64,000 bases of DNA, taken from Diplonema papillatum. Its lineage: Eukaryota; Euglenozoa; Diplonemea; Diplonemida; Diplonemidae. Position numbers and translations under genes: made by a program. The notes beneath the pieces were generated by a model. That model ran no database searches and was not told the origin of the DNA. It saw only the letters and a list, made by a program, of their open reading frames with translations. This document shows, piece by piece, positions 5,481-59,024 of the stretch (the first letter of the stretch is position 1; every line of letters starts with the position of its first letter). The stretch is from NCBI GenBank assembly GCA_030068145.1, contig JAPJBO010000484.1:1-64000 (forward strand), in the 5' to 3' direction.

Positions 5481-5648
5481 TTGGGTGAATTGGGGGGGTA
5501 CTGCAGTAATTGATTAACGGCGTAACACTCAGGCAATCTTGATTGGTCGGTTCAACGTACCCACTAACGCACCTTCTTCCGGGGCTAAAAAGGTGCTGAT
5601 GACAGGATATTGAAATCGGAATAAAAACAAGAATATTAGTCTGAAAAA

Positions 5649-12035: not shown

Positions 12036-12984
12036 ATGTTTGACCTGATCGCCAGCAGGGTTGGAACCACGGTGCCGCGTGGGGTGCAGGCGAAGCACCG
12101 GGAACGGCGGGTTTCGTCCGAGGAGGCGATGCAACGCCTGCGCCATTTTGTTGGCAAGGCATGGGCGGATTCGACAGTGCAGGACCGCCAGAATTTGTGG
12201 CACCGCTTCCAGGCATGGCCGGATATGCAGGGATTGCCGGCGGATCCGGATACAGCAACCCAATTTGTCGTGGCGACAGTGGTCGAGCCGCAGGGCATGC
12301 TGGCGTATACCCGCCTCCTTTCAGCGGTCTTTGGCCACCTTGGGGTGGATGCCCGGCCCCTCCTATCGTTGGCCACGGTCCTCCGTGGTTCAGGAGGCAA
12401 TATTCCCCTGGAGCAAGCCCTATCAGTGCCGAGGGAGGTGTTGTTAGCTTGGGCATTCCGACAGACTCCTCGCGTGCGTGCGGCAGTTTTGATCGCGTGG
12501 AAGACGGCTTCGCGGTGGGGCGACGTTCAAAATCTCTCCCGTGCGTGTTTTCCTCTCATCTCGAACACGGAGATTAGTGGTCGACTGGAACACGCTGCCG
12601 AAGGGCCGTCGGGGCAACCCGTTCTGCAGAAGCAAGGTAGTTGCGATCCGGGGACCGCTGACCCGGGAGATCGCGGAGTTGCTGCGGGGCCTCGGGAACT
12701 TTCAACAGTTGTGCCCCCTCTCGACGGATCAGTTCAGCAGACTGCTCGGAGCGGACAACGCGACGAAGCTGTACTCCGCGCACAGCGTGAAGAGGGGCGC
12801 CATCGACCACTTGATGAACATGAAGGCTGCGGGAGCTCCGTTCGCGCTGCAGTTGATTTCGCGCCTGGCGAAGCACACGAACGACGCCGATCCGACCGTG
12901 GCCAACATGACGGTCAGGTACACGTCGGATCCGGTGGCGCTGGCGCGGGTTCTTCAGACCGGGGACGTGACAAGGTACCTCTGA
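12036..12984 (+). pseudogene. Tyrosine recombinase of the YR retroelement (copy B), one +1 frame break
   Basis: From ATG 12036 the protein has a helical core-binding domain (EAMQRLRHFVGKAWADSTV ... YTRLLSAVFGHLG) and then the catalytic domain. Its first Arg lies in WKTASRWGDVQNL, HxxR-like residues are in HSVKRGAIDHL, then LISRLAKHTN and the tyrosine in VRYTSDP. Between NTEI and VVDWNTLPKG, at 12573-12577, the frame moves by +1. Copy C has the same break. The enzyme would join the element DNA into the genome without a target duplication. Confidence 0.75.
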
Positions 12985-13168
12985 GGAGGAGGAAGTCGGA
13001 CAAGAAGCGGAGGCACCCCCCTATGTGCAAGCACCCCGATCCGGACCCCGGCGGCTTGTCGTCCATCAACACCAGCGGTACTCCATCCTTCGGAGGGGGA
13101 AGCGGACCCGGCTTCCGGGGACAGAGGAAGAGAAGAAGTCGCCGCTGCACGTCGACTCGGTACCATCA

Positions 13169-14714: not shown

Positions 14715-14862
14715 CCTCCTGGGCTAGCCTGTTCTCTCACCAACCGTGGCTATCTCGGGGGGGTTACCCCAACGGAAGTGATTTCTCCCCTTTTCCCCTT
14801 TCTCCTGAGCTGGAAAGACAGAAGCATGTGCCCATGCCTGAGTGAGTAGCCGGCGGAGAATT

Positions 14863-19839: not shown

Positions 19840-20625
19840 ATGTTTGACCTGATCGCCAGCAGGGTTGGAACCACGGTGCCGCGTGGGGTGCAGGCGAAGC
19901 ACCGGGAACGGCGGCGAGGCATTTCGTCCGAGGATGGGCATGGGCGTATACCCGCCTCCTTTCAGCGGTCTTTGGCCACCTTGGGGTGGATGCCCGGCCC
20001 CTCCTATCGTTGGCCACGGTCCTCCGTGGTTCAGGAGGCAATATTCCCCTGGAGCAAGCCCTATCAGTGCCGAGGGAGGTGTTGTTAGCTTGGGCATTCC
20101 GACAGACTCCTCGCGTGCGTGCGGCAGTTTTGATCGCGTGGAAGACGGCTTCGCGGTGGGGCGACGTTCAAAATCTCTCCCGTGCGTGTTTTCCTCTCAT
20201 CTCGAACACGGAGATTAGTGGTCGACTGGAACACGCTGCCGAAGGGCCGTCGGGGCAACCCGTTCTGCAGAAGCAAGGTAGTTGCGATCCGGGGACCGCT
20301 GACCCGGGAGATCGCGGAGTTGCTGCGGGGCCTCGGGAACTTTCAACAGTTGTGCCCCCTCTCGACGGATCAGTTCAGCAGACTGCTCGGAGCGGACAAC
20401 GCGACGAAGCTGTACTCCGCGCACAGCGTGAAGAGGGGCGCCATCGACCACTTGATGAACATGAAGGCTGCGGGAGCTCCGTTCGCGCTGCAGTTGATTT
20501 CGCGCCTGGCGAAGCACACGAACGACGCCGATCCGACCGTGGCCAACATGACGGTCAGGTACACGTCGGATCCGGTGGCGCTGGCGCGGGTTCTTCAGAC
20601 CGGGGACGTGACAAGGTACCTCTGA
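19840..20625 (+). pseudogene. Tyrosine recombinase (copy C), internally deleted and frameshifted
   Basis: About 190 bases of the core-binding domain are absent at 19917-19945, compared with 12107-12310 of copy B. The catalytic part has the same +1 break at 20214-20218 and the same active-site residues (ASRWGDVQ, HSVKRGA, VRYTSDP). Confidence 0.7.
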
Positions 20626-20809
20626 GGAGGAGGAAGTCGGACAAGAAGCGGAGGCACCCCCCTATGTGCAAGCACCCCGATCCGGACCCCGGCGGCTTGT
20701 CGTCCATCAACACCAGCGGTACTCCATCCTTCGGAGGGGGAAGCGGACCCGGCTTCCGGGGACAGAGGAAGAGAAGAAGTCGCCGCTGCACGTCGACTCG
20801 GTACCATCA

Positions 20810-22355
20810 ATGGACGTTGCGGTTCTTCGCCGACGAATGAACGCGCCGACGAGGAAGAGGTTCGATGAGACTTGGTCCCGGACGTTTTACCCGCAGACGT
20901 TCCCTTCGAAGACGTCTTCACCTCCGGGTCGTTCCCGTTTCGAGGCGGCGCATGCGTTTGAGCTGGAAGAGCACGGAATCGCGGAACGTGCCGCTGGTCC
21001 GGGTAGAGACATGAACGTGCCGTTCACAGTCGTCGAGGAGAAGGAACGCAAGCTCCGCCAGCGGTTCATCCTGTGGACGTACGACGCGAACCGGGTGGTC
21101 GAAGCGGACGGATACGAGGCTCACGTCCCCCTTAGCCACGTGTCGAAGTATCTGCACGCGGTGAATCGAGAGTGCGGCTCGACCCGGGACTTCAGGTGTG
21201 GGTTCTACGGGATGGAGATTCCAGCTGCGTCTCGCCGACTTTTCGCCTTTCAGCGACGGCGACGGCAACTGGTGGCAATTGACGAGGCTACCGATTGGCC
21301 ATTCGTGTGCACCCGAGCTGATGTACACATTGGCGTCGACGACCGCGGGGCACCCAGATTACGTCGACGGCAAGCATGCAGTGTCATCGGAGGTGCTGGT
21401 TCACGTCTGGGTGGACAACATCAGATACGCGGGGCCACGCAATCTCGTGTTGAAGGCGACGTCGTATCCGGACGCCTTGGCTGCCGAGGCACGCATTACG
21501 TCGAAGGCTGCGGATACGAGGAACGCGGCATGCCGCTATGAGTTTCTTGGCGTCGACTGGAAGCATAGCGACGGCACCGTGGGCGTCTCCGCCAAGATGC
21601 AATCGCGTTTGCAGCGCGCCGAGGAGAGTGTTCGAGCGGGTAAGATGTCAGCCGCCGAAATCAAATCCCTGGCTGGTCGTTTGCTGCACGCGTCGGCGAT
21701 TGCCGGAGTCTACGTGGGCGAGTACTACTTCGCCCTGAAGTTCTTTCGACTGACGAACGCCCTCAATCGGGGCGAGAAGTGTCTTGACGAGAACGTGGTT
21801 CTGTCACACGGTCTGCAGCGCGCGCTCCCCTCGTGGATGCAGCGTGTTCAGCGTCGCCGAATTGTTCCAGTCGCTGCTCAATCGCCGAAGTTGGCAGTGT
21901 TCGTGGATGCCAGCCTTGATGGTTGGGGAGGTGTACTCGTCGACGTCGACACCAACGACATGGTAGTCGTCGGCTCTTGTTGGAATCGTGTGGAGAAGCG
22001 CCTCCACATAAACCAGCTTGAAGCTATGGCCTTCGAGAGATCCGTGAAGGCCATCTCGCCGGCGTACGCCGGGTCCACGGTAACGGTCATCGTGGACAAC
22101 ACCTCTGTGCAAGGGGTGGCCCGAAAGGGCGCGTGTTTACGATCGCATATCTTGAACGATGCGGTTGTTCGTGCTTTGTTGTGTTTGCAGCAACTGAAGG
22201 TTGCGCTGTCCGTTAGGTGGGACTGGAGCGCAGGGAATCCCGCTGATCTGCCATCGCGGGTGCCGTTGGCATCTCTCACCGAACAAAACTTTTCGGATAT
22301 GTCACTGGCGGTCAGGAGCTTTGTTCTGACTGGCGTCATGGGTCCGGCGGTGTGA
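20810..22355 (+). pseudogene. Reverse transcriptase-RNase H (copy C), one +1 frame break
   Basis: Same reading as copies A and B, with the frame break at 21250-21253, the WVDN box and a complete RNase H catalytic set. Start taken as the ATG equivalent to 13169. Confidence 0.75.
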
Positions 22356-22503
22356 CCTCCTGGGCTAGCCTGTTCTCTCACCAACCGTGGCTATCTCGGG
22401 GGGGTTACCCCAACGGAAGTGATTTCTCCCCTTTTCCCCTTTCTCCTGAGCTGGAAAGACAGAAGCATGTGCCCATGCCTGAGTGAGTAGCCGGCGGAGA
22501 ATT

Positions 22504-25767: not shown

Positions 25768-25899
25768 CATATTATACCCACGGTTGGCATGTAATAATTA
25801 TTGTTAGATTTGATTAGATTTTATTAGATATTATTAGCCTGATTATTACGTATTACTAGATCTAATAATGGGTAATAACTAATAATTTCTCATAATTTC
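25768..25899. repeat. AATAAT-rich array, type 1, second copy in unit C
   Basis: Begins with the ATACCCACGGTTGGCATG boundary seen at 2965 and 15783. It ends at the LINE insertion point, where TCATAATTTC (25890-25899) is the left target duplication. Confidence 0.65.
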
Positions 25900-25966
25900 G
25901 TCGTCTTGTTGCGTTAGTGGGGAGTCATTTGCAAGCAAATGAGTACCACACTATGCCAGCTTTTCG

Positions 25967-28900
25967 CTACGTGACTCCAGAAGGGTCACTTTTTCCGCGC
26001 TTTCGGCGCGGCGCAACTCTAGTCGGTTGCAACTGTTGTTGGCAGTTGCTCACGATCTCATAATCCGAAAAGGAATCGGAGTCTTCGCTTTCTCGTTTGC
26101 GCCGATAGGCACGCCGCGATGCGGAGGACGTGAGTAGCCGGGAAGAGCCGGCGGGAGGGCGCGATCGTTGCGTGACCCGTGGAGGGTCGGAACCAGAATC
26201 AGAAAAAGAGCCCGAGTCAGGGCCTGCCATCGAAGAGGGCCGGGCGGGGCCGGGTGGGCGCGGTGCGTTCGGGCCGGCGAGGCCAGTGCCGTCGTCGCCG
26301 AGATCGGCGCGTCGTCGTCGTGCGCGCAGCGCGGCTGCGGGAGAGGTCGTGGGGGTGCAAGGCGCGGGTCGCTTCCTGCCTGCTGGCGGGGGGGCGCGCT
26401 TCGGGGGCGATTTCGTCGTCCGCCTTCTCCGGCCACGGCTGGTAGGTGTCCCCGGTGGGGACGGCGCGCGCCGCTTCCGGCCTGTGAGGCCGTCGCTCTC
26501 GCCGCGACCGCCACCGCCGCCGCCGCCGCGACCGCCACCGCGTGCGCCGCCGCGTGCGCCGCCGCGTGCGCGGCCGCGACCAGTGCCGCGGCCGCCGCCA
26601 CCGTCTCCGCCACTGTTGTCTCCGCCGCCCCGGCCGCCGCGGCCGCGGCCACGGCCGCGGCCGCCATGACCACCGCCACCCCCGTCGCCACTGCTGCTGT
26701 CGCGGCCAGCACCACCCCTGTGATGCCCCCGTCCGCAGCACGCGTCGGCGTTCGGGCAGGTCCCGCATCGCGTCAGCTGATGCGCCCGGCAGCATTGAAT
26801 GCGCAGGCCGTCGTCCGGGCGGTGGTGCACCTGGCAGCACTGGTCAACTACAAGGCTGTAGTTTCTTCGCATGCCAGTGCACACCGCGCACTTCTGCTTT
26901 GCGCAGGCATCGCAGACCGACTGCGTGCGGAGCAGAGGGTCCGCCTGCGCAGCCGGTACAAGCACGGGAAGGCGCGGGCGTTGCGGCAGAGGGGTGGGCA
27001 CGTCCCAGCGCAGCGAACGCTGTGCCCGCCGCGCCGCGTCGTACTGCGGGAACACGTCCCCGCCCCAGTTCTTCCCGTCCCCGGCAGCTGCCCGCGGAAA
27101 GCTCGCCTCCAGCACCCCGTGCGTCTCCTCGCCCCCGGCGAAGCGTGGGCGAGGTGTCAATCCCCCCCACAGCATCGGCGCCCCCAGGGTCCTCATCGAG
27201 CCCACCCGGACCTTCCGCTCGGCAGGCAACGGCGACGGCAGCTGCAGGTCTCGGCACAGGCGGCACAATGTCGACAGCATCGTCCAGAGGGTCTTCCCCC
27301 TCTGGTTGGCGGCGAGCCTTCGTATTCCCGGGGGGGCAGGGACGTCGACCCCGGTGTGGACCTCGAAGTCCACTGCCAGCTCGACGCACGACACCTCGCC
27401 CGCGTCGGTCCACCTCAGTGCCGACAGCCAGCCCTTGAGCGCCCGCATCGCACGGCCGCCGTACGGCCATCTCGGCGGCTCATCCGGAAGGCGGTCGAAG
27501 TTGAACAGGTGTTGCACCGCCGGCAGCGGCGCAGCTGCGTGCCAGGGGTGCATCGGTTGCACCGCGGAGAGGCGGCGTCGCTCCGCCTCCACGCGTGCAG
27601 TGTACACCGCCGCCATGAGGCGGTGAAGGGCCGCGACCTCCACCCGCATTCCTTCGACAATTACCCCATGCACACGCGTGCAAGACGGCCACCTCGCCCG
27701 GTCCGCCCGCAGGAGTTCGGCGAAGCAAGGACGGCCGCGGATCTCGTCGTAGGCGGGGCACTCCCACCACAGGTGATCCGCTGTGTCCTGGACGCCTCGG
27801 TCGCAGTCCCTGCAGCCGCGGTCCAGCGGCGGACGCTGAGGTTCCGAAGAGGAGGATTCGGAGGCGTGCTCGTCAAAGCTGCCTGTCGTATCAGAGGCGG
27901 TCGACGACACGGACGCCGAGGAGCTCGGCGACCCGTCCGACCCGGCCGCCCCTCCGTTCGCACGCGCATTCCGTCCCCACCGCGCTGCGAGAAACACACC
28001 CCCGGACAGGATCACCGCCAGTGCACGTTTCTCGCCAGCGTCAGCCGTCGCCAGGCGCAGCTCGTTCGTACGCCTGCAGTCCACCCCTGCCTGCACGCCG
28101 TCGTAAGACGGTCGTTGCCTCGCAAGCTGCGTCCAGGTCGTCTGCCGTAGCCGCGCCCGGATGGCGTGGTGCCTCTCGCCCCTCTCCATGTCGAGAAGCC
28201 GGCGGCCCTCGAGCGCCGCGGTCGCAAAGTCGTGGCCTTCGAAATCGATGCCCGCGACCGTGAAACCGTCAGAGATGGCGATCCCGACAGGTCCTAGGCG
28301 CGCCTTCGGCAACAACACACCGTGCCGGCTGTAAAGTCGGGCGATGTTCAGCATGCGGGCGTACACGCGGGGGAGCCTCTCGCACGCGTCGAAAAGCGAG
28401 CACAGGATCTTGTATGGCCGTGCCATCAGTGGGTCCATACGGTGGGCTTTCGCCAGGATGGTCAGCACCGCCGTCACATTCCTCGACGGATGCTTCGTCC
28501 CGAAAGCACCCTTCACTACCCGCGACCGCAGCCCCCTCAGGCACGTCTGCGTGTACCCCTCGTACGAGCACCCCGCCAGCACGCTTGCGAGGACATTGGA
28601 GCTCGCCACCTCGCAGCGGACCTCGAATGGTAGGCGCGAGGTGCTCAGCCTGTCCAGCAATGCGTTTTGGGCCCTCAGACGCGCGTCGTTGGTACGTTCC
28701 GCCTGAACGCTCGCGACACACGTGCGCACACCGAGGATCTTCGCCGTCGTCGCTGTCGGTATCGTCTCGTCGCCGACTGCCAGCACGCTCGTATAGGGCC
28801 GCCGCCGACGCTGCCGCGCCGTGCCCGCGGGGATCCCCATCGCCAGTGTCTTCGTCATGTTCAGCCGCATCCCTGTCAGGGCGCAGAACTGTGCGATGAC

Positions 28901-30256
28901 GTCGACCGCCTGCTGCAGCTCGGACTCCACGGACGCGAAGAGCGTGGCATCATCCGCCAGCGACTCCGACGAAACCTCCGGTACGCGCACCGACACCGCT
29001 CGGAGCACAATCGACAGCAAGGCGTTGATGAGGATCACCGAAAGTGGGCACCCCTGCAAGATACCGTTGGTGACCTCAAACTCGGACCCTACGCCCAGCG
29101 GCAACTTAAACCGGCGCTTCATCCCACGGTACATGGCGCGCAGGGGGCGCAGGATGCGCGCGTCGAGGCCCATCTCTTCGGCGAGCCGGAGAACGATCCC
29201 CTGCGGTACCCGGTCGAAGCACTTCGCGAAATCGAGTGCGACCATGTACAGCGATTTCGTCTCGTCCAGCAGCGTCTCCTCGATCAGCGTCGTCAGCTCC
29301 ATGAGGACGTCGTCCGTCCGATGCCCTCTGCGGAAGCCGTGCTGCGACGGAAGAATCCAGCCGTCCTGCCACTCCATGACGTCTTGCAAACGCCTGCAGG
29401 CCCACAACCGATAGACGCAGCTCGTCACGGTGATTGGCCGCAGGTTCGTTGGCGAGGTGTCGTCGGTCTTTGGGATGAGCGACACCAACGACGTCAGCAT
29501 ACCCTTCGGCCACTCCCCTCGCTCCTCTACCAGATTGAAGAGCGTCGCGAACCCGTCCAGCAGCTCGTCGGGCAGGGCCTTCAGCTCGTCCAAGCGCCAG
29601 CCGTCCACCCCACACGCCGTAGTCCTCTTCTTCCGCTTGTTGAGCACATCCCGTAGCTCCCTCCCGGTCACATCCCGCAGGTCCATCTGGCGGCGGGGAA
29701 TAAAACCCTCGAAGGCCCTGCGGAACACCTCGTACTCGGGCTCTGGGCGTCCTTCCCCGTACATGCGCAGGATCGGGTCCCACGCCTCCTGCAGCACCTC
29801 GTCCATCTCCTCGACGTTGGCGGTGAGCCGCCCGTCCGCTGTCCGCACCGCATCGGCCGCCTGCCCCGGACCCCCCCGTAGCATCGTCACAAGAGCCCGG
29901 CGATCCGTCCCAAACATCGTCAGCTGCCTCTCGTGTTGCTGCCTCTTCCGTACCCTCGCCGCAGCCGCGTTGTATCTCGCACTGCGCAGTCGTACGTCGT
30001 GCAAGTAAACGCGGGCGACCTCTGCGCTCGGCGGGTCGGAGGGGGGCGGCTCGCCGACCCCGCCGCCACGGATCACGGCGAGACAGCGCAGCCAGCACAA
30101 GCGGAGTTCTTGGGGCACCTGGAATGGTCCGGACGCTTCTAGGCGAGCTCGCTGGTAGACGTAGTGCTCCAGACGCCGGATCGCATTCCCGTGCCTCAGC
30201 TCCGTCTCGCACGCCACGCCCCGGTCCGGCGTACTCCTCGCCGCAACGCGAGTCAT
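25967..30256 (-). CDS. LINE ORF2: reverse transcriptase with Cys/His-rich C-terminus, 1429 aa
   Basis: An uninterrupted frame from ATG 30256; an in-frame TGA lies just upstream at the truncation. The RT core shows ACGVDGWRLDELKALP, SLIPKTDDTSPTNLRPITV, SQHGFRRGH, VALDFAKCFDRVP, NGILQGCPLSVILINALL and the catalytic SLADDATL. A knuckle CRDCDRGVQDTADHLWWEC follows near residue 820. Near 1115-1180 two modules of the form C-x2-[CH]-x4-C-x2-C-x(5-13)-CC-x(2-3)-HH occur, then long Gly/Arg repeats and basic clusters. The endonuclease is missing. The same C-terminal modules occur in the lineage-2 LINE at 46722-47003. Confidence 0.85.
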   Translation of the reverse strand: MTRVAARSTPDRGVACETELRHGNAIRRLEHYVYQRARLEASGPFQVPQELRLCWLRCLAVIRGGGVGEPPPSDPPSAEVARVYLHDVRLRSARYNAAAARVRKRQQHERQLTMFGTDRRALVTMLRGGPGQAADAVRTADGRLTANVEEMDEVLQEAWDPILRMYGEGRPEPEYEVFRRAFEGFIPRRQMDLRDVTGRELRDVLNKRKKRTTACGVDGWRLDELKALPDELLDGFATLFNLVEERGEWPKGMLTSLVSLIPKTDDTSPTNLRPITVTSCVYRLWACRRLQDVMEWQDGWILPSQHGFRRGHRTDDVLMELTTLIEETLLDETKSLYMVALDFAKCFDRVPQGIVLRLAEEMGLDARILRPLRAMYRGMKRRFKLPLGVGSEFEVTNGILQGCPLSVILINALLSIVLRAVSVRVPEVSSESLADDATLFASVESELQQAVDVIAQFCALTGMRLNMTKTLAMGIPAGTARQRRRRPYTSVLAVGDETIPTATTAKILGVRTCVASVQAERTNDARLRAQNALLDRLSTSRLPFEVRCEVASSNVLASVLAGCSYEGYTQTCLRGLRSRVVKGAFGTKHPSRNVTAVLTILAKAHRMDPLMARPYKILCSLFDACERLPRVYARMLNIARLYSRHGVLLPKARLGPVGIAISDGFTVAGIDFEGHDFATAALEGRRLLDMERGERHHAIRARLRQTTWTQLARQRPSYDGVQAGVDCRRTNELRLATADAGEKRALAVILSGGVFLAARWGRNARANGGAAGSDGSPSSSASVSSTASDTTGSFDEHASESSSSEPQRPPLDRGCRDCDRGVQDTADHLWWECPAYDEIRGRPCFAELLRADRARWPSCTRVHGVIVEGMRVEVAALHRLMAAVYTARVEAERRRLSAVQPMHPWHAAAPLPAVQHLFNFDRLPDEPPRWPYGGRAMRALKGWLSALRWTDAGEVSCVELAVDFEVHTGVDVPAPPGIRRLAANQRGKTLWTMLSTLCRLCRDLQLPSPLPAERKVRVGSMRTLGAPMLWGGLTPRPRFAGGEETHGVLEASFPRAAAGDGKNWGGDVFPQYDAARRAQRSLRWDVPTPLPQRPRLPVLVPAAQADPLLRTQSVCDACAKQKCAVCTGMRRNYSLVVDQCCQVHHRPDDGLRIQCCRAHQLTRCGTCPNADACCGRGHHRGGAGRDSSSGDGGGGGHGGRGRGRGRGGRGGGDNSGGDGGGGRGTGRGRARGGARGGARGGGRGGGGGGGRGESDGLTGRKRRAPSPPGTPTSRGRRRRTTKSPPKRAPPPAGRKRPAPCTPTTSPAAALRARRRRADLGDDGTGLAGPNAPRPPGPARPSSMAGPDSGSFSDSGSDPPRVTQRSRPPAGSSRLLTSSASRRAYRRKRESEDSDSFSDYEIVSNCQQQLQPTRVAPRRKRGKSDPSGVT
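26455..26705 (-). repeat. GC-rich repeat encoding RGG/GGRG runs
   Basis: Imperfect CCGCCGCGA-type repeats encode the glycine-arginine region of the LINE protein. RGG stretches commonly bind RNA; here that is inference. Confidence 0.7.
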
Positions 30257-30284
30257 CTTCAGCTCCGAGTTTCATCATAATTTC

Positions 30285-31140
30285 TAATAACTATAATTAC
30301 CTGGTAATAATTTCTCATAATTTCTAACAAAGTCTAATAATTTCTAATAATCTAATAATCGCCTGCAGAGAGTCCCCAGGAAGTGGGAGGATCAGGGAAA
30401 GACTACTCAGTCGGGCTAGGGTCTTGGCAATGAAGCCGCGAAAATGGAGGGAACCCAGAAATCAAAGTAGCTACGGCCCAAATCTCAGATTTTGTACTCA
30501 GTGAAAATATCCGATTTAGCTCTCGGTGAAAATCTCAGATTCAGCTTTCGGTGAAGATCTGCAGATTGTTCCTTCCATCTCACATTTTGCACTCAGCCCA
30601 AAACTCTCATGCGAGTTCAAAATCTGCGAGTTCGTGAGCGCAAACCCGGCGCCCGCCCAGAAAACATCACGGTCCCGGACGATGCTCAATGGCGACAAAC
30701 GCAAAGAAGAAGAGACACGAAAACAACACCAGAATCCATGCCAGGCAAGAGACTGGGTGGCCTGGCAGTGCAAGCCAAGCGGTGATGCCAAGGTGCTTTT
30801 AGGCAATGATATTGTATTAGTGTCGCCCCATAGTGCACTTAATCACCGCAAGTCCCAGCGCTTCATCAAAGCGGTTGTGGGCAAGCCGTGGTGAAAAGGC
30901 AGGACGTGACAATGGTGCTTGCAGAAGACAGCCCGAAGAACCGGCAGAAGATTCCAAGGAGGCCGTACATTCTGTGTGCAGATGAAAGTGAAATGACACC
31001 GGGATCTTATTGTCTGCTTCGGTCGGGTTCCAGCGAATGCCGAAACGCACCACGCACATCATCAAAGACCACATGCAACGGACTGTATGCCCAGCGAGCG
31101 GGATTCGTGCTCAAAAGAAGGTTTCCCAGATGAAGTTAAA
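30285..31140. repeat. Dispersed block with the 122-codon ORF (unit C copy)
   Basis: The copy runs from the right side of the LINE insertion to GAAGTTAAAC near 31139, where it joins the GC-rich block directly. The 3' quarter and the type-3 array of unit A are missing. Confidence 0.6.
30526..30894 (+). CDS. Hypothetical protein, 122 aa (unit C copy)
   Basis: Same reading as 4230-4598 and 16148-16516. No family is recognised. Confidence 0.3.
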   Translation: MKISDSAFGEDLQIVPSISHFALSPKLSCEFKICEFVSANPAPAQKTSRSRTMLNGDKRKEEETRKQHQNPCQARDWVAWQCKPSGDAKVLLGNDIVLVSPHSALNHRKSQRFIKAVVGKPW

Positions 31141-40750: not shown

Positions 40751-43590
40751 TCAGCCAATTTTCCTTCGCTTGGGAATAGGCCCCGTCGGTTTGTCCTCTT
40801 CTTCCTCCTCTTCGTCTTCTTCGTCTTCTTCATCTTCTTCGTCATCTTCTTCTTCTTCTTCTTCTTCTTCTTCTTCTTCTTCTTCTTCGTCTTCGTCTTC
40901 GTCTTCCTCTTCCCCATTCTCATTCTCATCCGTATCACCTTCTTCCTCTTCCTCCTGGTCATCTGAATCTGCAACCTCTTTTGCTACCCCTCTGGCAGCT
41001 GTCATCTTCTTCTCCAGCACTTCGAACACGGACACACCTTTTTTGGTGCTTGTGTCTCGCTTCCTCAATAAGCGGCGGGTTTTGAGCGACAGCCAGATGG
41101 TGGAACAGAGGGTAATGAAACCCTCTGCGGCGTCCACCCTCGGGCCCATGTCCCGTATCATAAGTTCCGCTGAGAGGGTTTTCACGTCGACCTGCGTGCG
41201 CTTCAGGGTGGCGTAGCGCAGCCGGGCATACAGCCTTTCAGCCTTGTTGGAGCTACAAGAACTGAAAATGAGGGCGTACTCCAGTGCCTTGCGAACCCGG
41301 CCCTTCACCTTGTCCAGCACCACAAACCAACCGCCCCACCCCATCCCCAGCTTTCTCACCTCTGTCTTGGCGATTAGCCACTGTTCTTTCGTGAACTCTG
41401 CCGATTCCTTTTCAAGGCCCGCCTCCTGCATCCCCAGTGTTTCCATCACCACCTCGAGGTCATCGTCGGCGTATTCGGCGAGATCCTCGTCAGACAGGCA
41501 CGTTATCTTGTACACGTTCATCATGCGCAGGAGAGCTGTCTCCACAGCACCGTAGTGGCGAAGGTTTGCCAAGCACTCAATGGCCAGATCGGTAGCGCGG
41601 CGCCGCATGCTTCCCGGTACCTGCTTGTTTTGCAGCTCTTCTAGTTCGGTGATTGCTTCGCCCACCGAAAAGTCGAAATGCAACAAAATTGCATGTTCCC
41701 CCTGTGCGACGAGGCTCGGTTTCTGGGCAATTGAAAACAACTCGCCAAAGAACAAGAGGTCATCCCGGGGACGTCATCTGCTTGGACCAACTTTTTCAGC
41801 TTTTGACGGGTCTTAGGCACGGAGTCTTGCGTTGATTCGTTGCTGTCTACTGCCTTCTTGTCAGCACGCACCTTCTTCCACGAAGATCCTGTCTCGATAT
41901 GTGATTTCCACATCATCCACATCCTTGCAGCACGTACCAGCGACGTCCGCACCTTCGCCTGCCAGCGGATGCGATAAGAGAGGGAAGGGCGCAGCACAAG
42001 TTTCCTCTGTTTGCCGACGGTGGTGAACTTGGATTTGCTGTCTGTTTCAAGCTCGCGGAACAGCACTTTCGACTGCAGATAAACACGGTCGATGGAGCGA
42101 ATCCCCTGGATGAGGGTGGCCAGCGCGGGGATCTTACTAACCGGCTTCAGCGCGTTCTGCAAGCGGTGTGCTTGGTCGGGGAAGTGTGGCTGCAATGTGC
42201 GGGTCCTGAGATGCATTCTTCCGACAAGCCCACGAGTTTTGCCCGTGATCGTCCCGCAGCTGTCCGCGATGACCCCGCCAACACGCTCTTCAGGGAGATC
42301 GACAGTGAGGAGCATTGCTTTCATCTGCTCGTGCAGTGCATCACCGTCTGCCGACACCAACACATTGTCCGTCATCCTGACGAACCGTTCGACACAGCGG
42401 AGGGTGGCTTTGGGGGACGGGCGATGGAGGTACCGCAAGAGGAACACATTCACGTCTTGGTTGACATTCCTCAGGGAGGTTCCGTCTGTCACCATCCCGA
42501 TGGAACTCACGCTCTTGAGCTCCTTCTTCACGCGTTCTTGCAGAGCACCGGCCCACACGTGCACCATCTCTCCAACATGCCTGGCGCACGCATATTTCTT
42601 GGGTATGCTCCCGCGAAGTCCTGCTATCGTAGCTGCAACCGTCGTGTGTTCCGTCCCGTGCATGATACCTGCGTACATCACGCAATGCAGGCGCGAGAAG
42701 AGGTCGACCTTCTCTTTCGGTGGCGGGACGATCTTCGGAGGCGGAGTTGCGGCGTTGGAGGTGGCGGCGGCAACAGCAGCCTGGTGGAAACCCGAACTTG
42801 ACAGATGTTTGTTCTGGGCTCTGCGGATGTTGTTGTTGTCGGCAACACGGTACTCAATCCAGGTGTTTTTTGATGCTTGGGCGTGTTTGCGCTTCACACC
42901 TGTCGTCACTGCTTTCGCGCACGCCTTGCAGCCCCAACCTGTGGCCTTCTTCTCGAATAGCGCCTTCGGATCTTCAGGAGTGGCTTTCGGCTGAGGGGCG
43001 TTTACCTCACTACCCTGGCACGTAAACGTGATGCGCCCATCCTTTGCACCCAACATCACCATCTGTCGGCCATGCTCCGGATTGCGGATGACGATAATGC
43101 AGAAGAAGTGCCCCATCTTTTGCATGCCGATTGGGGGGAGAAAGACGATGTACACCCCTTCGCAGAGAGACGTGCGTTGGAACTCCGGCGGAGTAACCAA
43201 CCGAACGAGCGATGAGAGAGTGTCGCAGCAGAACCGGTTCACTTCGAGGTTGGTCAGCGGAGGGGGGCTCTCGGAACGACGAAGGCACATGTGGATGTTC
43301 AACCAGCGGTAGTCTTTCATTCCGAAGTTCTCGGCGTCGGTGGTAACCCAGAAGGCGGCGATGTCTTTAAGGGTAGGGCAAACCACCAGCCGCGCTTTCT
43401 CCCGAACCCACTTGGCAGCCACCATGAGGGATATGTACCCGCAGGTCGTCGCCATACCTTGCTCATCAGACACCACGTACCGCGTGTCGTCCTTCTTCGC
43501 GGTTCTGGAGGCATGTCTCTCACATGCCAGCTTCCTTGTTGTCAAGTACGACCAAGCAAAATCGAGCACGAAAAACGCAAACGCAGACAT
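40751..43590 (-). pseudogene. hAT transposase (copy 1), one frame break
   Basis: The start is ATG at 43590. The frame runs to about 41765, where two extra bases relative to copy 2 shift it, and then resumes to 40751. Recognisable hAT features: SIGMVTDGTSLRN (first Asp), GGVIADSCGTITGKTRGLVG (second Asp), and PHFPDQAHRLQNAL, the [C/D]xxH box. A CKAC ... H stretch upstream may bind zinc. The C-terminal part ends with a long Glu/Asp tail encoded by a TTC/TCC repeat on the plus strand and a KRRK nuclear signal. The long N-terminal region before the first Asp is not recognised. Confidence 0.7.
40795..40945. repeat. TTC/TCG trinucleotide repeat encoding the acidic tail
   Basis: The plus strand shows CTTCTTCTTC repeats with CGT and CAT variants; on the minus strand they encode Glu and Asp. 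The tail is missing from copy 2. Confidence 0.85.
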
Positions 43591-44136
43591 TGTTATTGGG
43601 ATTTACTTAAAATGTTTGTATACTCCTGCGGGTTTGGGACGTCTTTAACTGACGGTGTCCAATCCGTAATGGAACCGGCCGAAAGAGCCAGATTTGATTC
43701 GTTTTTGATTGTTCGTTTCCTCAGACAGCTGTTCTTCAGTAGTAGTAGTAGTAGTTTGAACTTTATATGCAGTAACAATCTGTGGTAATGAAGTGCACAA
43801 GCCGCTACCGACTACCTCTTGGCGCGTCGCGCCGTGCTTGGGTTGTTAAAAAAATAATCCAAGGACGTTTTTGAACGCTTTGGAATCCGTTGAGCTCAAG
43901 GACAGTCTGGGGCCCTGGAATGGAATAGTAAACGAATTGCATCTTGTACCAGAGAGTTTTTCCTTTGGTAATCGTTCAGGGCCAAAAAAACTGGAAAATT
44001 TCCAGGGCCCGGGCCCCGAGTTACAGGTACCCTTGGTGGGGGGGGACAAGACGAATAATTGTACTTGGCAATTTGGTAATACGGGCAACCAAAAGAAGGG
44101 ACAGAGAACAAAATAGGTCTTTTATTTTCAAGGGCA

Positions 44137-46005: not shown

Positions 46006-46063
46006 TGAGCCAATTCACCTAGCCCCCCTGAAAGTGACTTTAGCTCGATTACGCGTCGATTAC
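46006..46063 (+). mobile_element. Left end of a second hAT-like element of the TGAGCCAATT family
   Basis: The terminal repeat TGAGCCAATTCACCTAG and the following bases match 5370-5425. Homology stops in the CGATTACACT array, where LINE sequence begins. No right end is present in the window. Confidence 0.75.
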
Positions 46064-46172
46064 ACTTCACGTGCGAAGAGATAACCGCGCCGTCGGCGAT
46101 GCAGATTATCGCCACAGATTCTTTGCATTCTAACCCAAACTAACCCAAACGATTACACTCGATTACACTGCA
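46064..46172 (+). mobile_element. LINE lineage 2, copy 1: only the 3' tail
   Basis: The 75 bases from TTCACGTGCGAAGAGATAAC to CATTCTAACCCAAAC match the 3' untranslated end of the next copy (47414-47487). They are followed by CGATTACACTCGATTACACT. This is a very short 5'-truncated insertion. Confidence 0.7.
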
Positions 46173-47520
46173 GTATTGGCTGGATGGGATGTGCTGGTCG
46201 GTGGCGGGTGACGTGTCGACGGCAGAGCTCGCCATCGACTTTTATACACCGGATTGGACCTTCCAGGCAATGTCGTAGCAACGACGGACGGGACACCGTT
46301 GAGCATGCGTGCGAGGGTACTCGCAAGGCTTTTGAAGACCGTCGGGGACGCGCTGGAGCGGAACGGCGACGAACCGCCTCTGCCGGGAAGGAAATTGGAG
46401 AAGATAGGGTCGTTGAGAACGGTGGGAGCCCCGCCGTGCCTCACGGGGTACGAGATGAGGCCAATCTTCCGTGGTGGTACGGAGACGATGGAAGTGCTCG
46501 AGACACAACTGACGACGGCTCGGCACGGATTCAACGGCGAGGCGTGGGGGATGGATCTTTTCCCGACGTACGGAGGTGGAAGAGCGGAGCGTGCGGCGAG
46601 ATGGGCGGTGTTCAACGACGCTACGGAGAAGAAGAAAGGCAAGAAGACGGCAGTCGTCGGAGGGGATCCGTGGTACGTGCCGGAAGGGGCTCCCCGACAC
46701 GAAAAGTGGGGTGAGCGGGTGTGCCACGAGCACCAAAAGGTGAAATGCGACGGGTGCAAGCGCCAGGGCAAGTCGGTGGCGTGGTGCTGTAAGGCCCACC
46801 ACAAGGAAGACGACGGCCTTGCGGTGAAGTTCTGCGCGCAGCACCGCCTGACGCAATGCGCGACGTGCAAGACGATCGCGGAGTGCTGCCGCAACGGACA
46901 CCACCGGTGCCTTGATCATGGCATGCCGACGTGTGCGCACTGCAGCCGGCTCGCGGACTTGCGGAGTCGAAGGCCCAAACTGTGCTGTCGGAAGGGGCAC
47001 CACCGGGCGGCCGTGGCGAGAGGAGAAGAAGCAGCATCGAAGAAGAGGAAGGCGGAGCCGGAGGGCGCCGCGACAGCGCCGAGACAGGCGAGACGTGAGA
47101 ACGTGGTGTTCATTCTGCGGGAAGCAGCGGAAGGCGAGCGAGAGCCCGCAACATCAACGCCGACATCAGCAGCGAAGGTCGGGAAGACGGCACCAACGCC
47201 AGCGAAGAAGCGGCAATCGGACTCCGCGGCGGAGCCGGTACCGAAAAGACGCAAAGGACGCGTCGATGTGCCACGACCATCGCCCAGGCGCCGAGAAAAA
47301 GCAGAAATCGACGCGCAACCGATGAACCTCGACGAGCAATCGAAGAAGAAGCGAAGCACCAAACGCGCGCCTGAGCGCGACGATCAAGACGAGCTAAAGA
47401 GGCGAAAGCATGACACTTCACGTGCGAAGAGATAACCGCGCCGTCGGCGATGCAGATTATCGCCACAGATTCTTTGCATTCTAATCCAAACGATTACACT
47501 CGATTACGCTCGATTACGCT
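46173..47520 (+). mobile_element. LINE lineage 2, copy 2: C-terminal part of ORF2 and 3' end
   Basis: The 5' junction is directly after CGATTACACT at 46172 and the 3' end again consists of CGATTACACT/CGATTACGCT units (47492-47520). The first 70 bases match 50979-51050 of copy 3 and then the frame is broken by a small deletion near 46240. Confidence 0.75.
46254..47435 (+). CDS. LINE ORF2 C-terminus with three Cys/His modules, 393 aa
   Basis: From 46722 to 47003 (residues about 157-250) three modules fit C-x2-H-x4-C-x2-C-x(5-13)-CC-x(2-3)-HH: CHEHQKVKCDGC ... CCKAHH, CAQHRLTQCATC ... CCRNGHH, and CLDHGMPTCAHC ... CCRKGHH. Eight ligands per module suggest two zinc ions each; this is inference. 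The tail is highly basic. Upstream, SLRTVGAPP and FRGGTETMEVLE match the lineage-1 protein (SMRTLGAPM ... FAGGEETHGVLE). The reverse transcriptase is absent from this copy. Confidence 0.7.
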   Translation: MDLPGNVVATTDGTPLSMRARVLARLLKTVGDALERNGDEPPLPGRKLEKIGSLRTVGAPPCLTGYEMRPIFRGGTETMEVLETQLTTARHGFNGEAWGMDLFPTYGGGRAERAARWAVFNDATEKKKGKKTAVVGGDPWYVPEGAPRHEKWGERVCHEHQKVKCDGCKRQGKSVAWCCKAHHKEDDGLAVKFCAQHRLTQCATCKTIAECCRNGHHRCLDHGMPTCAHCSRLADLRSRRPKLCCRKGHHRAAVARGEEAASKKRKAEPEGAATAPRQARRENVVFILREAAEGEREPATSTPTSAAKVGKTAPTPAKKRQSDSAAEPVPKRRKGRVDVPRPSPRRREKAEIDAQPMNLDEQSKKKRSTKRAPERDDQDELKRRKHDTSRAKR

Positions 47521-50500
47521 GACCGGCAGGGCAAAGCATCACCGTGGGTAGCGGAAGCCGGCGGAGCGGGTGTTGCAGTTTTTGCGAAGAAACCGGCGCC
47601 GGCCTTCGTGGTCGGGAAGCCATCACTGAGCCGGAGATGGGTGTACGTGGCCGTCGGACTGGGAAAGGGAAGCCAATTCTTGCATGTATTCACTCTATAT
47701 GCGAATTCTGGGGACAAGGCTGCGTCGGAGAGGGAGAGGATCATTGCGGAGGTGCACCGGGAAGCATCAAGTCTCGGACGGGTGCCAGTGATTGTGGCCG
47801 GGGATTTCAATGCAGAACCCTCGTCGTCGGCGGCGATGTCGAGCATGCTGCGGTCGGGATGGTACGACGCCGCGGAAATCTGCTCCGCTGGCGGTGCCCC
47901 GAAGACGTACGAGAAGACAGGCACGCGAGGCACACGCATCGACCACATCTTGTTGAACGACGTCGCGATGCAGGCACTCGTAGCGAGCGAGACCACCGTC
48001 GTCGTGGACGGGGAGGGGCAGCGGGTGCCCAGTCACAAGATGGTAACGGTGGAGTTGGACATCGCCGCGTTCGCAGACACGTGTGAGAGGTATCGAATGC
48101 CGAGGTCACTGCGGCAAATAAGCAAGGTGGACGAGGGGCGGACAGCGGCAAGGGCGGAAGAGTTGTTGGTGAAGAATCGCTTCGGCGATGCGGCACCAGG
48201 GAACGTGGAAGCACTCTGGCTGTCGGCGACGAAGGCGTGCGAGCAGTTTCTGATCGAGCTGGCAGAGGAACAGGGGCTGCTCGACGGGCCCGTTGCCGCC
48301 TATCGAGGAAGAGGTGAGACGAGGGTGCCCAAAAGGGTGCGAATTGCATCTGCGACGGACACCGGGACGGGCGCAGACACATATGCCTCGAGCAGAGTCC
48401 GGAAGGCGATGAACGGCCTCGACGCGTATATCCGAGGGTTGCAAGCTCTGAATGGGGAAGGACCTGGGTGCATGCCGAGGTCGCTGGAGAAGACGTGGCA
48501 GAACGTGGTGTCTGGTCTGGATTCTATGGCCGGACAATTACCGAAGGTGCGCAATTTGCCGCGGCGTCCACCGGACTTGAGCGTCGCCCAGACCGTCAGG
48601 CAGAAGCTGGAAGCGAGAAGCCGTTCACTGACGGCACAAGCGCGTAAAGGGAGGATTGCACAGCTGGAGAACAAGATGCAAAACCTCCACTGCGCGAACA
48701 AAGCGCAGTTGCTACCGTGGTGCAGGAAGAAGAGGGCGGATGGCTTGGTGGCGCTGAAGGTGGAGGGGCAGTACACGGCGAATGCGCGGCAGATCGATGC
48801 GGCGTTGCAGAAGGAGTGGGCGCCGGTTAACCAGATGTACGAGTGCAAACAGGAGCCAAGCTATGAAGCGTTCCGGACGGAGTATGCGGAGTACATCGAA
48901 CATCGTCCGATGGAATGCCGAGATTTGACGGGCGAGGATCTGAGAAGCATTCTTGGAAAGAAGAGGGATGGCGGTGTCCCAGGTGTGGACGGATGGAACA
49001 CAGCGGAGCTGAAGAAGCTGCCATTGCCGCTACTGAACGCCCTGGCAGAGGTGTTCAACGCGATAGAAGCGACCGGGACGTGGCCAGACGCGTTGTTGGA
49101 AGCCGCGGTCACGCTGATCCCGAAGGACGAAACTCTTGACCCGCTGGCGTTGCGGCCGATCACCGTCACAAGTGCGATCTATCGCTTGTGGGCGAGTACG
49201 CGGCTCAGGGACGTCGTCCAGTGGCAGGAGAAATGGATAGCGGATAGCCAGCACGGATTCAGGCCCAAACACGGGACCGTGGACGTGGTATTCGAAATCG
49301 CCTCGCAGATCGAAGAAGCGCTCTTGACGGGTAAGGAGCTATACGGCGTGGCCTTAGACTTTGCCAAGTGTTTTGACAAGGTGCCGCGAGACATCGTGTT
49401 GAAGCTGGTGGGGGAGCTGGGCCTCCATGAGAGAATCCTCGGGCCGCTGCGCGACATTTACGCGCGATTACGGAGGCGGTACAAGCTGCACATGGGAGTG
49501 GGAGGTGTCTTCTTCACCACCAATGGGATACTGCAGGGCTGCCCCCTGAGCGTGATCCTCATCAACGCGCTGCTGTCCATCGTGGTGCGCAGAGTGGACG
49601 ACGTGGGGGAGGTGACGAGCGAATCCTTCGCGGACGACCTCACCCTCCTGTCGCGTCTCAGGGAAGCCTGCTTGCAGGACGCCTTGGTGGAAGTCGACAG
49701 ATTTTGTTCGAACACCGGCATGTCGATCGGGATACCGAAGACGTTTGCTTTTGGGACGCCGAAGGGGTATGAAGCGAAGTTGAGGGTAGGCGGCGCACTT
49801 ATCGCGACGAAGGAGGAGCTCACCATCGTTGGGTGTCTAGTCGGCACGAAGCGAACACGCAGGACAACGGACCTGCGCTACGACCAGCGTGCAGAGGAGG
49901 CCGAACGGTTGGGAGCTCTGCCGATCTCGATGACGCAGAGGTCGGGACTAGCGGCGATGGCAGTTTTACCGGCGGCGACATACGGCTCGGAGTTCGCGCT
50001 TCCGACGGTGCGGGGGCTGGGGAAGTTCACCGCAGCATTACTCAGAGGCGTCTGGGACCCGGTGAGGCTGCATCGGGCACAGGAGGCCGTGTTGGGCATT
50101 CTAAACAAGGCCCACTTGCTCGACCCCTACACAGTGCTGCCATATCGGTCGCTCGGCATGATCGCAGAAGTGTGCCGAAAGAGGCCGGTATGGAGGGCCC
50201 GCGTCGCAACAGTTCGAAGGGCGTATGGCAGCAGAATCCGCGCATGGGGACCGATCGGTATTGCGGCCGAGCATGCAAAGAAGCTCGGTATACGATGGAC
50301 AGAAGATCTCGACGACGCCGAGGACGAGGCAGGGAATGTGCTGAGGCTGGTGCGACAGAGTAAGGGGGAGCGAGGGCACACCCTGAGAAAGGCGATTCAC
50401 GGCTGGCGACTAGGGGAGCTCGAGAAGAGGCGCACAAACTTCGGAGGGGTACGGGCGGGTGTCGACTACACCGCGACGAATGCCTACGGGCTGAAGGCGT

Positions 50501-51130
50501 CGACAACGCTGACGGCCGCGCGGGACGTTGCCGAGGTCGTAGCAGGGTCGGTGATGACGGAATCACATGCTGCCAAGCTGTGGGGAGGTGACGGGCTGTG
50601 CAGACGCTGTGACGAGGCGACGGAAGAAACTCTGGGCCACATTTGGTGGCAGTGCCGGGCGTATGAACGAATCCGAATGCAACAGCAGTATGCCGAAATT
50701 GTTGACGCAGATCGCTCGACTTGGCCTCCGTGCCTGCAAGAACACGGGATTCTGCCGAAGGGAAGTCGAATCAACATCGAAGTGCTGCACACATTCATGG
50801 CGGAAGTCATGCAAGAGAGACGACGGCTGGAGAGAGAAGGAAGAGACCGGGCAGTCGGCCATCCCTGGAGACAACTGCACCCTGACGACTGCCCCCCGCG
50901 CCGGCTGAATTTCGAAGCGATCGCTGGACCGGGGACCTTCACGGCGGTAGCAGGAGAGAGGTGGTTCCGGGCGCTGCAGTATTGGCTGGATGGGATGTGC
51001 TGGTCGGTAGCGGGTGACGTCTCGACGGCAGAGCTCGCAGTAGACTTCGAAGTGTACACCGGGCTCGATCTACCGGGCAGTTTTGTGGCGACGACAGGTG
51101 GGACGCCGCTGTGTATCCGTGCGAGAATGT
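47521..51130 (+). mobile_element. LINE lineage 2, copy 3: endonuclease to ORF2 C-terminus, 3' end missing
   Basis: The copy begins within the endonuclease, directly after a CGATTACGCT unit, and loses homology with copy 2 at about 51130, where a CTG-rich stretch begins. No 3' tail is present. Together, copies 1-3 form a head-to-tail series. Confidence 0.85.
47521..51130 (+). CDS. LINE ORF2: APE-type endonuclease plus reverse transcriptase, truncated at both ends
   Basis: The frame is open from the junction and continues without a stop to 51504. The endonuclease part shows VIVAGDFNAEP, GTRIDHILLND and SHKMVTVEL, the middle and end of the AP-endonuclease fold; the N-terminal motif is missing. 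The RT has VPGVDGWNTAELKKLP, LIPKDETLDPLALRPITV, SQHGFRPKHG, VALDFAKCFDKVP, NGILQGCPLSVILINALL and catalytic SFADDLTL. A knuckle CRRCDEATEETLGHIWWQC follows. After 51130 the frame reads CTG-repeat sequence and is not LINE. Confidence 0.85.
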
Positions 51131-56243: not shown

Positions 56244-59024
56244 CAAGGGTACCTGTAACTCGGGGCCCGGGCCCTGGAAATTTTCCAGTTTTTTTGGCCC
56301 TGAACGATTACCAAAGGAAAAGCTCTTTGGTACAAGATGCAATTCGTTTACTATTCCATTCCAGGGCCCCAGACTGTCCTTGAGCTCAACGGATTCCAAA
56401 GCGTTCAAAAACGTCCTTGGATTATTTTTTTTAACGACCCAAGCACGGCGCGACGCGCCAAGAGGTAGTCGGTAGCGGCTTGTGCACTTCATCACCACAG
56501 ATTGTTACTGCATATAAAGTTCAAACTACTACTACTACTGGAGAACAGCTGTCTGAGGAAACGAACAATCAAAAACGAATCAAATCTGGCTCTTTCGGCC
56601 GGTTCCATTACGGATTGGACACCGTCAGGATAAAGACGTCCCAAACCCGCAGGAGTATACAAACATTTTAAGTAAATCCCAGTGTCTGCGTTTGCGTTCT
56701 TCGTGCTCGATTTTGCTTGGTTGTACTTGACAACAAGGAAGCTGGCATGTGAGAGACATGCCTCCAGAACCGCGAAGAAGGACGACACGCGGTACGTGGT
56801 GTCTGATGAGCAAGGTATGGCGACGACCTGCGGGTACATATCCCTCATGGTGGCTGCCAAGTGGGTTCGGGAGAAAGCGCGGCTGGTGGTTTGCCCTACC
56901 CTTAAAGACATCGCCGCCTTCTGGGGTACCACCGACGCCGAGAACTTCGGAATGAAAGACTACCGCTGGTTGAACATCCACATGTGCCTTCGTCGTTCCG
57001 AGAGCCATGGTGATGTTGGGTGCAAAGGATGGGCGCATCACGTTTACGTGCCAGGGTAGTGAGGTAAACGCCCCTCAGCCGAAAGCCACTCCTGAAGAAC
57101 CGAAGGCGCTATTCGAGAAGAAGGCCACAGGTTGGGGCTGCAAGGCGTGCGCGAAAGCAGTGACGACAGGTGTGAAGCGCAAACACGCCCAAGCATCAAA
57201 AAACACCTGGATTGAGTACCGTGTTGCCGACAACAACAACATCCGCAGAGCCCAGAACAAACATCCGTCAAGTTCGGGTTTCCACCAGGCTCCTGTTGCC
57301 GCCGCCACCTCCAACGCCACAACTCCGCCTCCGAAGATCGTCCCGCCACCGAAAGAGAAGGTCGACCTCTTCTCGCGCCTGCATTGCGTGATGTACGCAG
57401 GTATCATGCACGGGACGGAACACACGACGGTTGCAGCTACGATAGCAGGACTTCGCGGGAGCATACCCAAGAAATATGCGTGCGCCAGGCATGTTGGAGA
57501 GATGGTGCACGTGTGGGCCGGTGCTCTGCAAGAACGCGTGAAGAAGGAGCTCAAGAGCGTGAGTTCCATCGGGATGGTGACAGACGGAACCTCCCTGAGG
57601 AATGTCAACCAAGACGTGAATGTGTTCCTCTTGCGGTACCTCCATCGCCCGTCCCCCAAAGCCACCCTCCGCTGTGTCGAACGGTTCGTCAGGATGACGG
57701 ACAATGTGTTGGTGTCGGCAGACGGTGATGCACTGCACGAGCAGATGAAAGCAATGCTCCTCACTGTCGATCTCCCTGAAGAGCGTGTTGGCGGGGTCAT
57801 CGCGGACAGCTGCGGGACGATCACGGGCAAAACTCGTGGGCTTGTCGGAAGAATGCATCTCAGGACCCGCACATTGCAGCCACACTTCCCCGACCAAGCA
57901 CACCGCTTGCAGAACGCGCTGAAGCCGGTTAGTAAGATCCCCGCGCTGGCCACCGACCGTGTTTATCTGCAGTCGAAAGTGCTGTTCCGCGAGCTTGAAA
58001 CAGACAGCAAATCCAAGTTCACCACCGTCGGCAAACAGAGGAAACTTGTGCTGCGCCCTTCCCTCTCTTACCGCATCCGCTGGCAGGCGAAGGTGCGGAC
58101 GTCGCTGGTACGTGCTGCAAGGATGTGGATGATGTGGAAATCACATATCGAGACAGGATCTTCGTGGAAGAAGGTGCGTGCTGACAAGAAGGCAGTAGAC
58201 AGCAACGAATCAACGCAAGACTCCGTGCCTAAGACCCGTCAAAAGCTGAAAAAGTTGGTCCAAGCAGATGACGTCCCCGGAGACCTCTTGTTCTTTGGCG
58301 AGTTGTTTTCAATTGCCCAGAAACCGAGCCTCGTAGGGGGAACATGCAATTTTGTTGCATTTCATTGCTTCACCGAACTGGAAGAGCTGCAAAACAAGCA
58401 GGTACCGGGAAGCATGCGGCGCCGCGCTACCGATCTGGCCATTGAGTGCTTGGCAAACCTTCGCCACTACGGTGCTGTGGAGACAGCTCTCCTGCGCATG
58501 ATGAACGTGTACAAGATAACGTGCCTGTCTGACGAGGATCTCGCCGAATACGCCGACGATGACCTCGAGGTGGTGATGGAAACACTGGGGATGCAGGAGG
58601 CGGGCCTTGAAAAAGAATCGGCAGAGTTCACGAAAGAACAGTGGCTAATCGCCAAGACAGAGGTGAGAAAGCTGGGGATGGGGTGGGGCGGTTGGTGTGT
58701 TGGTTTGTGGTGCTGGACAAGGTGAAGGGCCGGGTTCGCAAGGCACTGGAGTACGCCCTCATTTTCAGTTCTTGTAGCTCCAACAAGGCTGAAAGGCTGT
58801 ATGGGGGAAAATTGGCTGATAGCACCTGACTGTGTGCGTTTTTATCAAGATGTATCAAGTTTATTTCGTGTTTTCTTCTCGTTTTTCTCTCCGCTTGTTG
58901 TGGGAATCTGCAATACGGAAGATTCCACCCTTGGATGGCGTGAGCACCGTGGGCCTGGACCCTATCTGGACCCTAGCGCTAACCCGGGGCCCGGGGCCCG
59001 ACCCTGGAGTTACAGGTACCCTTG
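56244..59024 (+). mobile_element. hAT transposon, copy 2 (2.8 kb, internally deleted)
   Basis: Terminal repeats CAAGGGTACCTGTAACTC are flanked by C8 on both sides (56236-56243 and 59025-59032), the likely 8-base target duplication in a homopolymer. It is an inverted copy of 40529-44035, shorter by about 700 bases through several deletions. Confidence 0.85.
56682..58830 (+). pseudogene. hAT transposase (copy 2), start lost and internally deleted
   Basis: Relative to copy 1, six bases including the ATG are deleted just before 56688, about 240 bases are missing at 57003-57007 (between the N-terminal region and VMLGAKDGRITF), about ten codons are lost near 57953, and the acidic tail is gone. The catalytic region is otherwise in frame from 57007 to 58725, including the place where copy 1 has its 2-base insertion. 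Confidence 0.7.

Follow-up and report, generated by a model that had tools for sequence, protein, structure and literature searches.

The stretch of Diplonema papillatum DNA analyzed here (contig JAPJBO010000484.1, positions 1 to 64,000; hereafter "the window", 64,000 nucleotides in length) carries copies of two lineages of LINE whose proteins bear tandem Cys/His modules near the C-terminus. These copies adjoin arrays of 10-bp repeats, and one array belongs to the end of a DNA transposon. The features are as follows.

5370-9598 (+): DNA transposon bounded by terminal inverted repeats, with CGATTACRCT arrays towards each end and CTACA as its 5-bp duplication (by eye)
25879-25898 (-): 10-bp units AAATTATGAG AAATTATTAG adjoining the 3' end of the lineage-1 copy
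25899-30271 (-): lineage-1 LINE copy, 5'-truncated (frame 25967-30271)
26720-26791 (-): Cys/His module 2, lineage 1 (regular-expression scan, strict match)
26822-26914 (-): Cys/His module 1, lineage 1, with Cys at ligand 2 (scan)
27758-27814 (-): ordinary CCHC knuckle C-x2-C-x9-H-x4-C of the lineage-1 protein (read from the translation)
30272-30360 (-): array of TTATTAGAAA-like 10-bp units adjoining the 5' end of the lineage-1 copy (by eye)
46006-46066 (+): left-hand DNA transposon end (TGAGCCAATTCACC...), containing decamers, directly before a short LINE piece
46067-46149 (+): short fragment from the 3' end of a lineage-2 LINE, inserted in the array
46150-46169 (+): two units of CGATTACACT between LINE pieces
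46170-47490 (+): lineage-2 LINE copy with three modules, 5'-truncated (frame 46212-47435, shifted near 46242)
46722-46802 (+): Cys/His module 1, lineage 2 (regular-expression scan; aligned)
46833-46904 (+): Cys/His module 2, lineage 2 (regular-expression scan; basis of the AlphaFold model)
46908-47003 (+): Cys/His module 3, lineage 2 (regular-expression scan)
47491-47520 (+): three CGATTACRCT units between two LINE copies
47521-51130, end approximate (+): second lineage-2 (2b-like) LINE copy with APE and RT matches, ending in low-complexity sequence before the modules
50599-50655 (+): ordinary CCHC knuckle C-x2-C-x9-H-x4-C of the lineage-2 protein (read from the translation)

In both lineages the protein has the ORF2-type order of N-terminal part, APE domain, RT, ordinary CCHC knuckle, linker domain, modules and basic tail; the linker domain is common to both, and the tail is RG-rich in lineage 1 (by eye). 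The lineage-2 modules of the window reside in a dead fragment, as the 5' truncation and the frameshift show. Elsewhere in the 271-Mb genome, other copies keep long open frames; the three that we read measure, from stop to stop, 1,851 codons (L067, lineage 2), 1,834 codons (L066, sub-lineage 2b) and 1,881 codons (L068, lineage 1). In long-frame copies of both lineages, Pfam families Exo_endo_phos (E values 7e-13 and 3.8e-13) and RVT_1 (1.6e-20 and 2.3e-23) are matched, and the best PDB chains for the lineage-2 copy of the window are L1 ORF2p and then R2. The APE domain precedes the RT, and the elements have constant 3' ends with 5'-truncated copies, as is characteristic of APE-type LINEs. The two lineages are quite diverged: their identity is about 36% in the region that contains the RT and 32% in the C-terminal region.

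The module was first described from the letters of the window as C-x2-H-x4-C-x2-C-x(5-13)-CC-x(2-3)-HH. A six-frame scan for this strict pattern returned four matches in the whole window and none further, and 200 rounds of residue shuffling over all frames gave none. Three of the matches are the tandem modules at 46722-47003 (+), as the sequence-only reading had stated. Its claim of two further modules in the lineage-1 LINE (26720-26914, -) holds strictly for one of them; the other (26822-26914) reads C-x2-C-x4-C-x2-C-x13-CC-x2-HH, with Cys replacing His at the second position. The spacers preceding CC measure 9, 5 and 13 residues in lineage-2 modules 1 to 3, and 13 and 5 residues in lineage-1 modules 1 and 2. 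Modules 1 and 2 are separated by a linker of ten residues in both lineages, and the third module of lineage 2 begins one residue past the HH of module 2. Conservation supports a reading in which the eight Cys/His positions of each module are putative metal ligands.

This module is not the knuckle known from LINE ORF2, which is one motif with four ligands, C-x2-C-x(about 9)-H-x4-C. Each module conserves eight positions, in an order that differs from that of the knuckle, and the knuckle itself is also present upstream. Nor did comparison of the five modules with Pfam and with the sequences of the PDB, a check that had been proposed together with the pattern, place them in a catalogued zinc-finger family. 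None of the five matches Pfam at E values up to 10, and the C-terminal stretches match no Pfam zinc-finger family (one TPR match at E 0.11 was taken as chance). In searches of PDB sequences with phmmer and a profile, the only matches were two disulfide isomerases at E about 1, also taken as chance. B-box, WRKY19-type, NF-X1, classical C2H2 and MYM fingers were considered as identities and rejected, as there was no Pfam match; their spacings also differ from that of the module. In known fingers, adjacent CC and HH residues are rarely all metal-binding, a point against a zinc-binding role for the full set. An AlphaFold model of module 2, with the five modules as the alignment, has a mean pLDDT of 78.3 (87-88 over the core) and suggests a fold of two short strands, which flank C-x2-H, followed by C-x2-C, a helix bearing CC, and HH. 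A Foldseek search of the PDB with this model found no match, a result that says little for a model of 38 residues. The model of the 257-residue C-terminal region was unusable (pLDDT 34.5).

Both lineages are abundant in the genome; the best 150 of 5,009 and the best 150 of 2,631 candidates were scored, and all matched. Absence of the modules from other copies of both lineages had been named as one of two observations that would speak against them. With an exact upstream anchor, three modules are present in 32 of 33 lineage-2 stretches (30 loci) and two modules in all 14 lineage-1 stretches (12 loci), in a sample of loci that are the best matches to the window's own sequence and hence biased towards similarity. 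The only further module-bearing lineage among the loci examined is sub-lineage 2b, which carries little weight as a negative result because the genome searches are dominated by near-identical copies, and no relatives of the module were confirmed in viral contigs.

As controls we used 15 stretches fetched downstream of the best RT matches of the same genome. The module is found in none of the 15, and a single C-x2-C-x(9-10)-H-x4-C knuckle is found in all 14 readable C-termini (the fifteenth, L044, is disrupted); the control families are mutually related and were chosen by RT score, and therefore do not amount to fourteen independent controls. RNase H was matched in five of the six control families tested (four above the Pfam cut-off), and none was matched in L049.

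The modules have been kept between the two diverged lineages, as the sequence-only reading proposed. Across modules 1 and 2, lineages 1 and 2 are identical at 15 of 16 ligand positions and at 12 of 47 other aligned residues (Fisher p 1.7e-6). Between the long frames of L067 and L066, the modules have a dN/dS of 0.094 (dS 1.373, dN 0.129), the lowest of eight regions, the other seven ranging from 0.113 to 0.37. None of 24 ligand residues has changed between these two frames, compared with 20 of 72 others (p 0.0026), and eight of the 24 ligand codons differ silently. These comparisons support strong purifying selection on the modules. Synonymous divergence between L066 and L067 is uneven, with dS of 0.585 and 1.373 over residues 1450-1703 of L067 and of 0.156 and 0.125 in neighbouring parts. 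This hints that the C-terminus was exchanged between sub-lineages, in which case the dN/dS of the modules reflects an older split than that of the RT.

Lineage 2 favours one kind of insertion site. Its 3' ends read ...TTTGCATTCTAAYCCAAA; of the 37 that were readable (30 loci; one extra end was lost at a contig end, and two loci gave none), 35 pass into CGATTACRCT decamers, and the two ends outside arrays are duplicates of each other. Among 20 distinct 3' flanks, identity is 0.71 at lag 10 and 0.12-0.34 at other lags, values given without a significance test. A DNA transposon whose inverted repeats are TGAGCCAATTCACC...GGTGAATTGGCTCA bears the decamer arrays close to each of its ends. Within 200 bases of the 37 LINE ends we find its right inverted repeat in 22 cases, its left arm in four and neither in 11. 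The copy of this transposon at 5370-9598 has its arrays without a LINE. Its two frames (window 5640-7823 and 8111-9178) match no Pfam family at E values up to 1.

An occupied site was read in contig C57, which holds a lineage-2 copy with both frames. Its 5' flank is the right arm of the transposon (195 of 206 bases like window 9366-9571) and ends ...CGATTACACT ATATTACACT, and its 3' flank starts ATATTACACT CGATTACGCT and finishes with the inverted repeat. Because ATATTACACT stands on both sides, the LINE made a target duplication of one decamer. The host transposon starts further 5' with TGAGCC and is flanked on both sides by GCAAA, its own 5-bp duplication. Two other lineage-2 5' ends reach about 30 bases further upstream, and so the C57 copy may lack the very 5' end. 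For lineage 2 there is both an occupied and an empty site, as for a target-specific LINE; the empty site was found for lineage 2 only. The letters of the C57 3' junction are common to 14 lineage-2 ends with 13 different outer flanks, and these ends are probably not independent insertions. The simplest reading, with 5' ends read for few copies, is that the transposon carried the LINE along; C19, the one other copy checked at its 5' end, fits simple carrying along poorly.

Lineage 1 uses other 10-bp arrays, on the evidence of 3' flanks and two 5' flanks. Beyond its 3' end, ...AACGCAACAAGACGACG, the sequence runs into AAAAGTTGTG or a close variant in 11 of 15 cases and into other 10-bp units (AAATTATGAG, AAAAAGCGTG, AAATCTTGGG and ATTCTTCTTG) in the remaining four (by eye). 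In the ten distinct flanks among these 15, identity is 0.56 at lag 10 and 0.20-0.34 at other lags, again without a significance test. The copy in the window has a AAATTATTAG-like array on both sides. Some lineage-1 copies lie in a second transposon, as its inverted repeat TAGGTGGATCRCCCC is reached by the 3' flank in 5 of 12 loci and the counterpart of TAGGTGGATCRCCCC stands before the copy in C970. At about 10 of 37 lineage-2 ends and 7 of 15 lineage-1 ends (by eye), another LINE piece follows in head-to-tail arrangement, separated by one or a few decamers. Both lineages prefer 10-bp arrays.

In the control families, an A-run is present in 11 of 14 tails, and the 11 flanks after it have no peak at lag 10 (0.35, or 0.30 without T-runs). 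A T-run follows the A-run in six of these 11 flanks, and several families adjoin each other's 3' ends. For example, the tails of L045, L047, L048, L050 and L051, which are RNase-H-type LINE families, adjoin each other's 3' ends, often with a T-run after the A-run, and such families may have a target preference of their own.

We propose that the modules serve as units for binding zinc and nucleic acid near the C-terminus of the ORF2-type protein, in APE-type LINEs whose preferred insertion sites are 10-bp tandem arrays, many of them near DNA transposon ends, and we regard this proposal as evenly balanced. Binding of zinc and nucleic acid is the most likely role to be read from the conserved Cys/His set, and the nucleic acid is perhaps target DNA. 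The suggestion in the sequence-only reading that the modules serve RNA or target binding gains weight because both lineages prefer 10-bp arrays. Each module would fold round one or two zinc ions, with C-x2-[H/C] and C-x2-C acting together with the CC and HH pairs. The APE domain would nick the array, and the RT would start target-primed reverse transcription, copying the element RNA from the nick. During nicking and priming, the array of modules may hold the target DNA beside the cut site. An account of human L1 ORF2p locates the CCHC of the C-terminal domain on a possible path of the target DNA, which this domain may bind (PMC10830420); modules that lie C-terminal to such a knuckle could therefore also be near the target. 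A more specific version would seat each module on a single 10-bp unit, roughly one turn of the helix, and thereby align two or three modules along one face of the decamer array. We judge this version unlikely, since it draws solely on the match between a repeated domain and a repeated target with a unit of that length. If it were true, a LINE could recognize periodic arrays, including those of different letters as in lineage 1, and ride inside DNA transposons.

Module presence, target type and phylogeny are confounded: the two lineages, being related, do not provide independent tests. It is possible, though less likely than not, that the modules bind the element's own RNA, either at its 3' end or in a nucleocapsid-like function, and that the APE domain chooses the target. 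The basic tails that follow the modules, RG-rich in lineage 1 (by eye), are consistent with this role. So is work on SART1 and TRAS1 in which a swap of the endonuclease domain is described as having moved target specificity (PMC7265360), and the APE domain alone may likewise explain array targeting here. Against it, the zinc finger and Myb domains of R2 are described as binding target DNA (PMC10499050), although they are N-terminal, and the present data fit RNA and DNA equally.

We consider it improbable that the modules are protein-protein units that dock to the transposase of the host transposon or to chromatin on decamer arrays. Both lineages occupy arrays, in many cases close to the ends of transposons, which transposases can bind (the BED domains of Hermes provide one described example; PMC10368747), but lineage 1 resides in 10-bp arrays of different letters, which is hard to reconcile with one transposase. 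That the Cys/His pattern is a relic without function, compositional or hitchhiking, is largely refuted and scarcely credible: high copy number and the dead state of the copy in the window speak for it, but the dN/dS of the modules is 0.094, the ligands are unchanged despite silent codon changes, and shuffling produces no match.

The proposed zinc- and nucleic-acid-binding role can be set beside several characterized elements. Tx1L of Xenopus is an APE-type LINE inserted in repeats inside the DNA transposon Tx1D, and in this respect resembles the LINEs reported here; in our case, the repeat is a 10-bp array near both transposon ends, and two lineages use different arrays. We know of no C-terminal module like this one in Tx1L. 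Specificity for short tandem repeats is shared with the telomere-repeat LINEs SART1 and TRAS1, as they are described (PMC7265360), although their repeat is of 5 bp, compared with 10 bp here, and their specificity is assigned to the endonuclease domain. R2, too, is described as holding target DNA with zinc finger and Myb domains of its own, but it combines an N-terminal C2H2 finger and Myb domain with a restriction-like endonuclease, in place of C-terminal modules with APE (PMC10499050). The CCHC knuckle of ORF2 is likewise a Cys/His motif C-terminal to the RT; it has four ligands and occurs once, whereas here two or three eight-ligand modules are additional (PMC10830420). Dictyostelium TRE elements are target-specific and have the ORF2 order of APE, RT and zinc-finger domain, a likeness at the level of domain order, and they target tRNA genes (PMC5006619).

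LINEs that target other transposable elements are already known as a kind, and Kojima (2022) names "other TEs" among LINE targets (PMC8869645). In the titles and abstract openings of open-access literature on the targets of LINEs, on their occurrence in DNA transposons and on zinc fingers at their C-terminus, we found neither the module nor the decamer arrays. New here, as far as that literature goes, are an undescribed Cys/His module in LINE proteins and two array-targeting LINE lineages, many copies of which lie inside DNA transposons. If the modules read arrays, they would bind DNA one repeat at a time next to a reverse transcriptase that is target-primed, and target choice by an APE LINE would be directly testable by module swap or mutation.

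Several additional characteristics of these elements were observed. In L066, L067 and L068, TGA closes the upstream frame and CTG comes next; the long frame then carries on in phase with the upstream one, as would be expected from readthrough or reinitiation. The upstream frame of L068 ends with a zinc-like motif, C-x2-C-x12-C-x2-C-x4-C-x2-C, and the matching end in L067 is without Cys (by eye). Near the N-terminus of its long frame (residues 22 and 106), L068 has two 2A-like motifs, GDVHPNPGP; 2A-like sequences are described from APE LINEs (PMC4981915). The first 180 long-frame residues of L067 and L066, before the APE domain, include an OTU-like cysteine-protease region with the motif GDGACQF, for which the Pfam OTU match in L067 (E 0.041) is below the cut-off.

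Elsewhere in the window, three stretches (142-1920, 12971-14749 and 20612-22390) have frames of 309, 396 and 170 codons that look identical, and by eye they appear to represent a DIRS-like element with RNase H. A transposase-like frame occurs twice, at 41641-43602 (-) and 56974-58725 (+), and resembles hAT or DUF4371 proteins (by eye).
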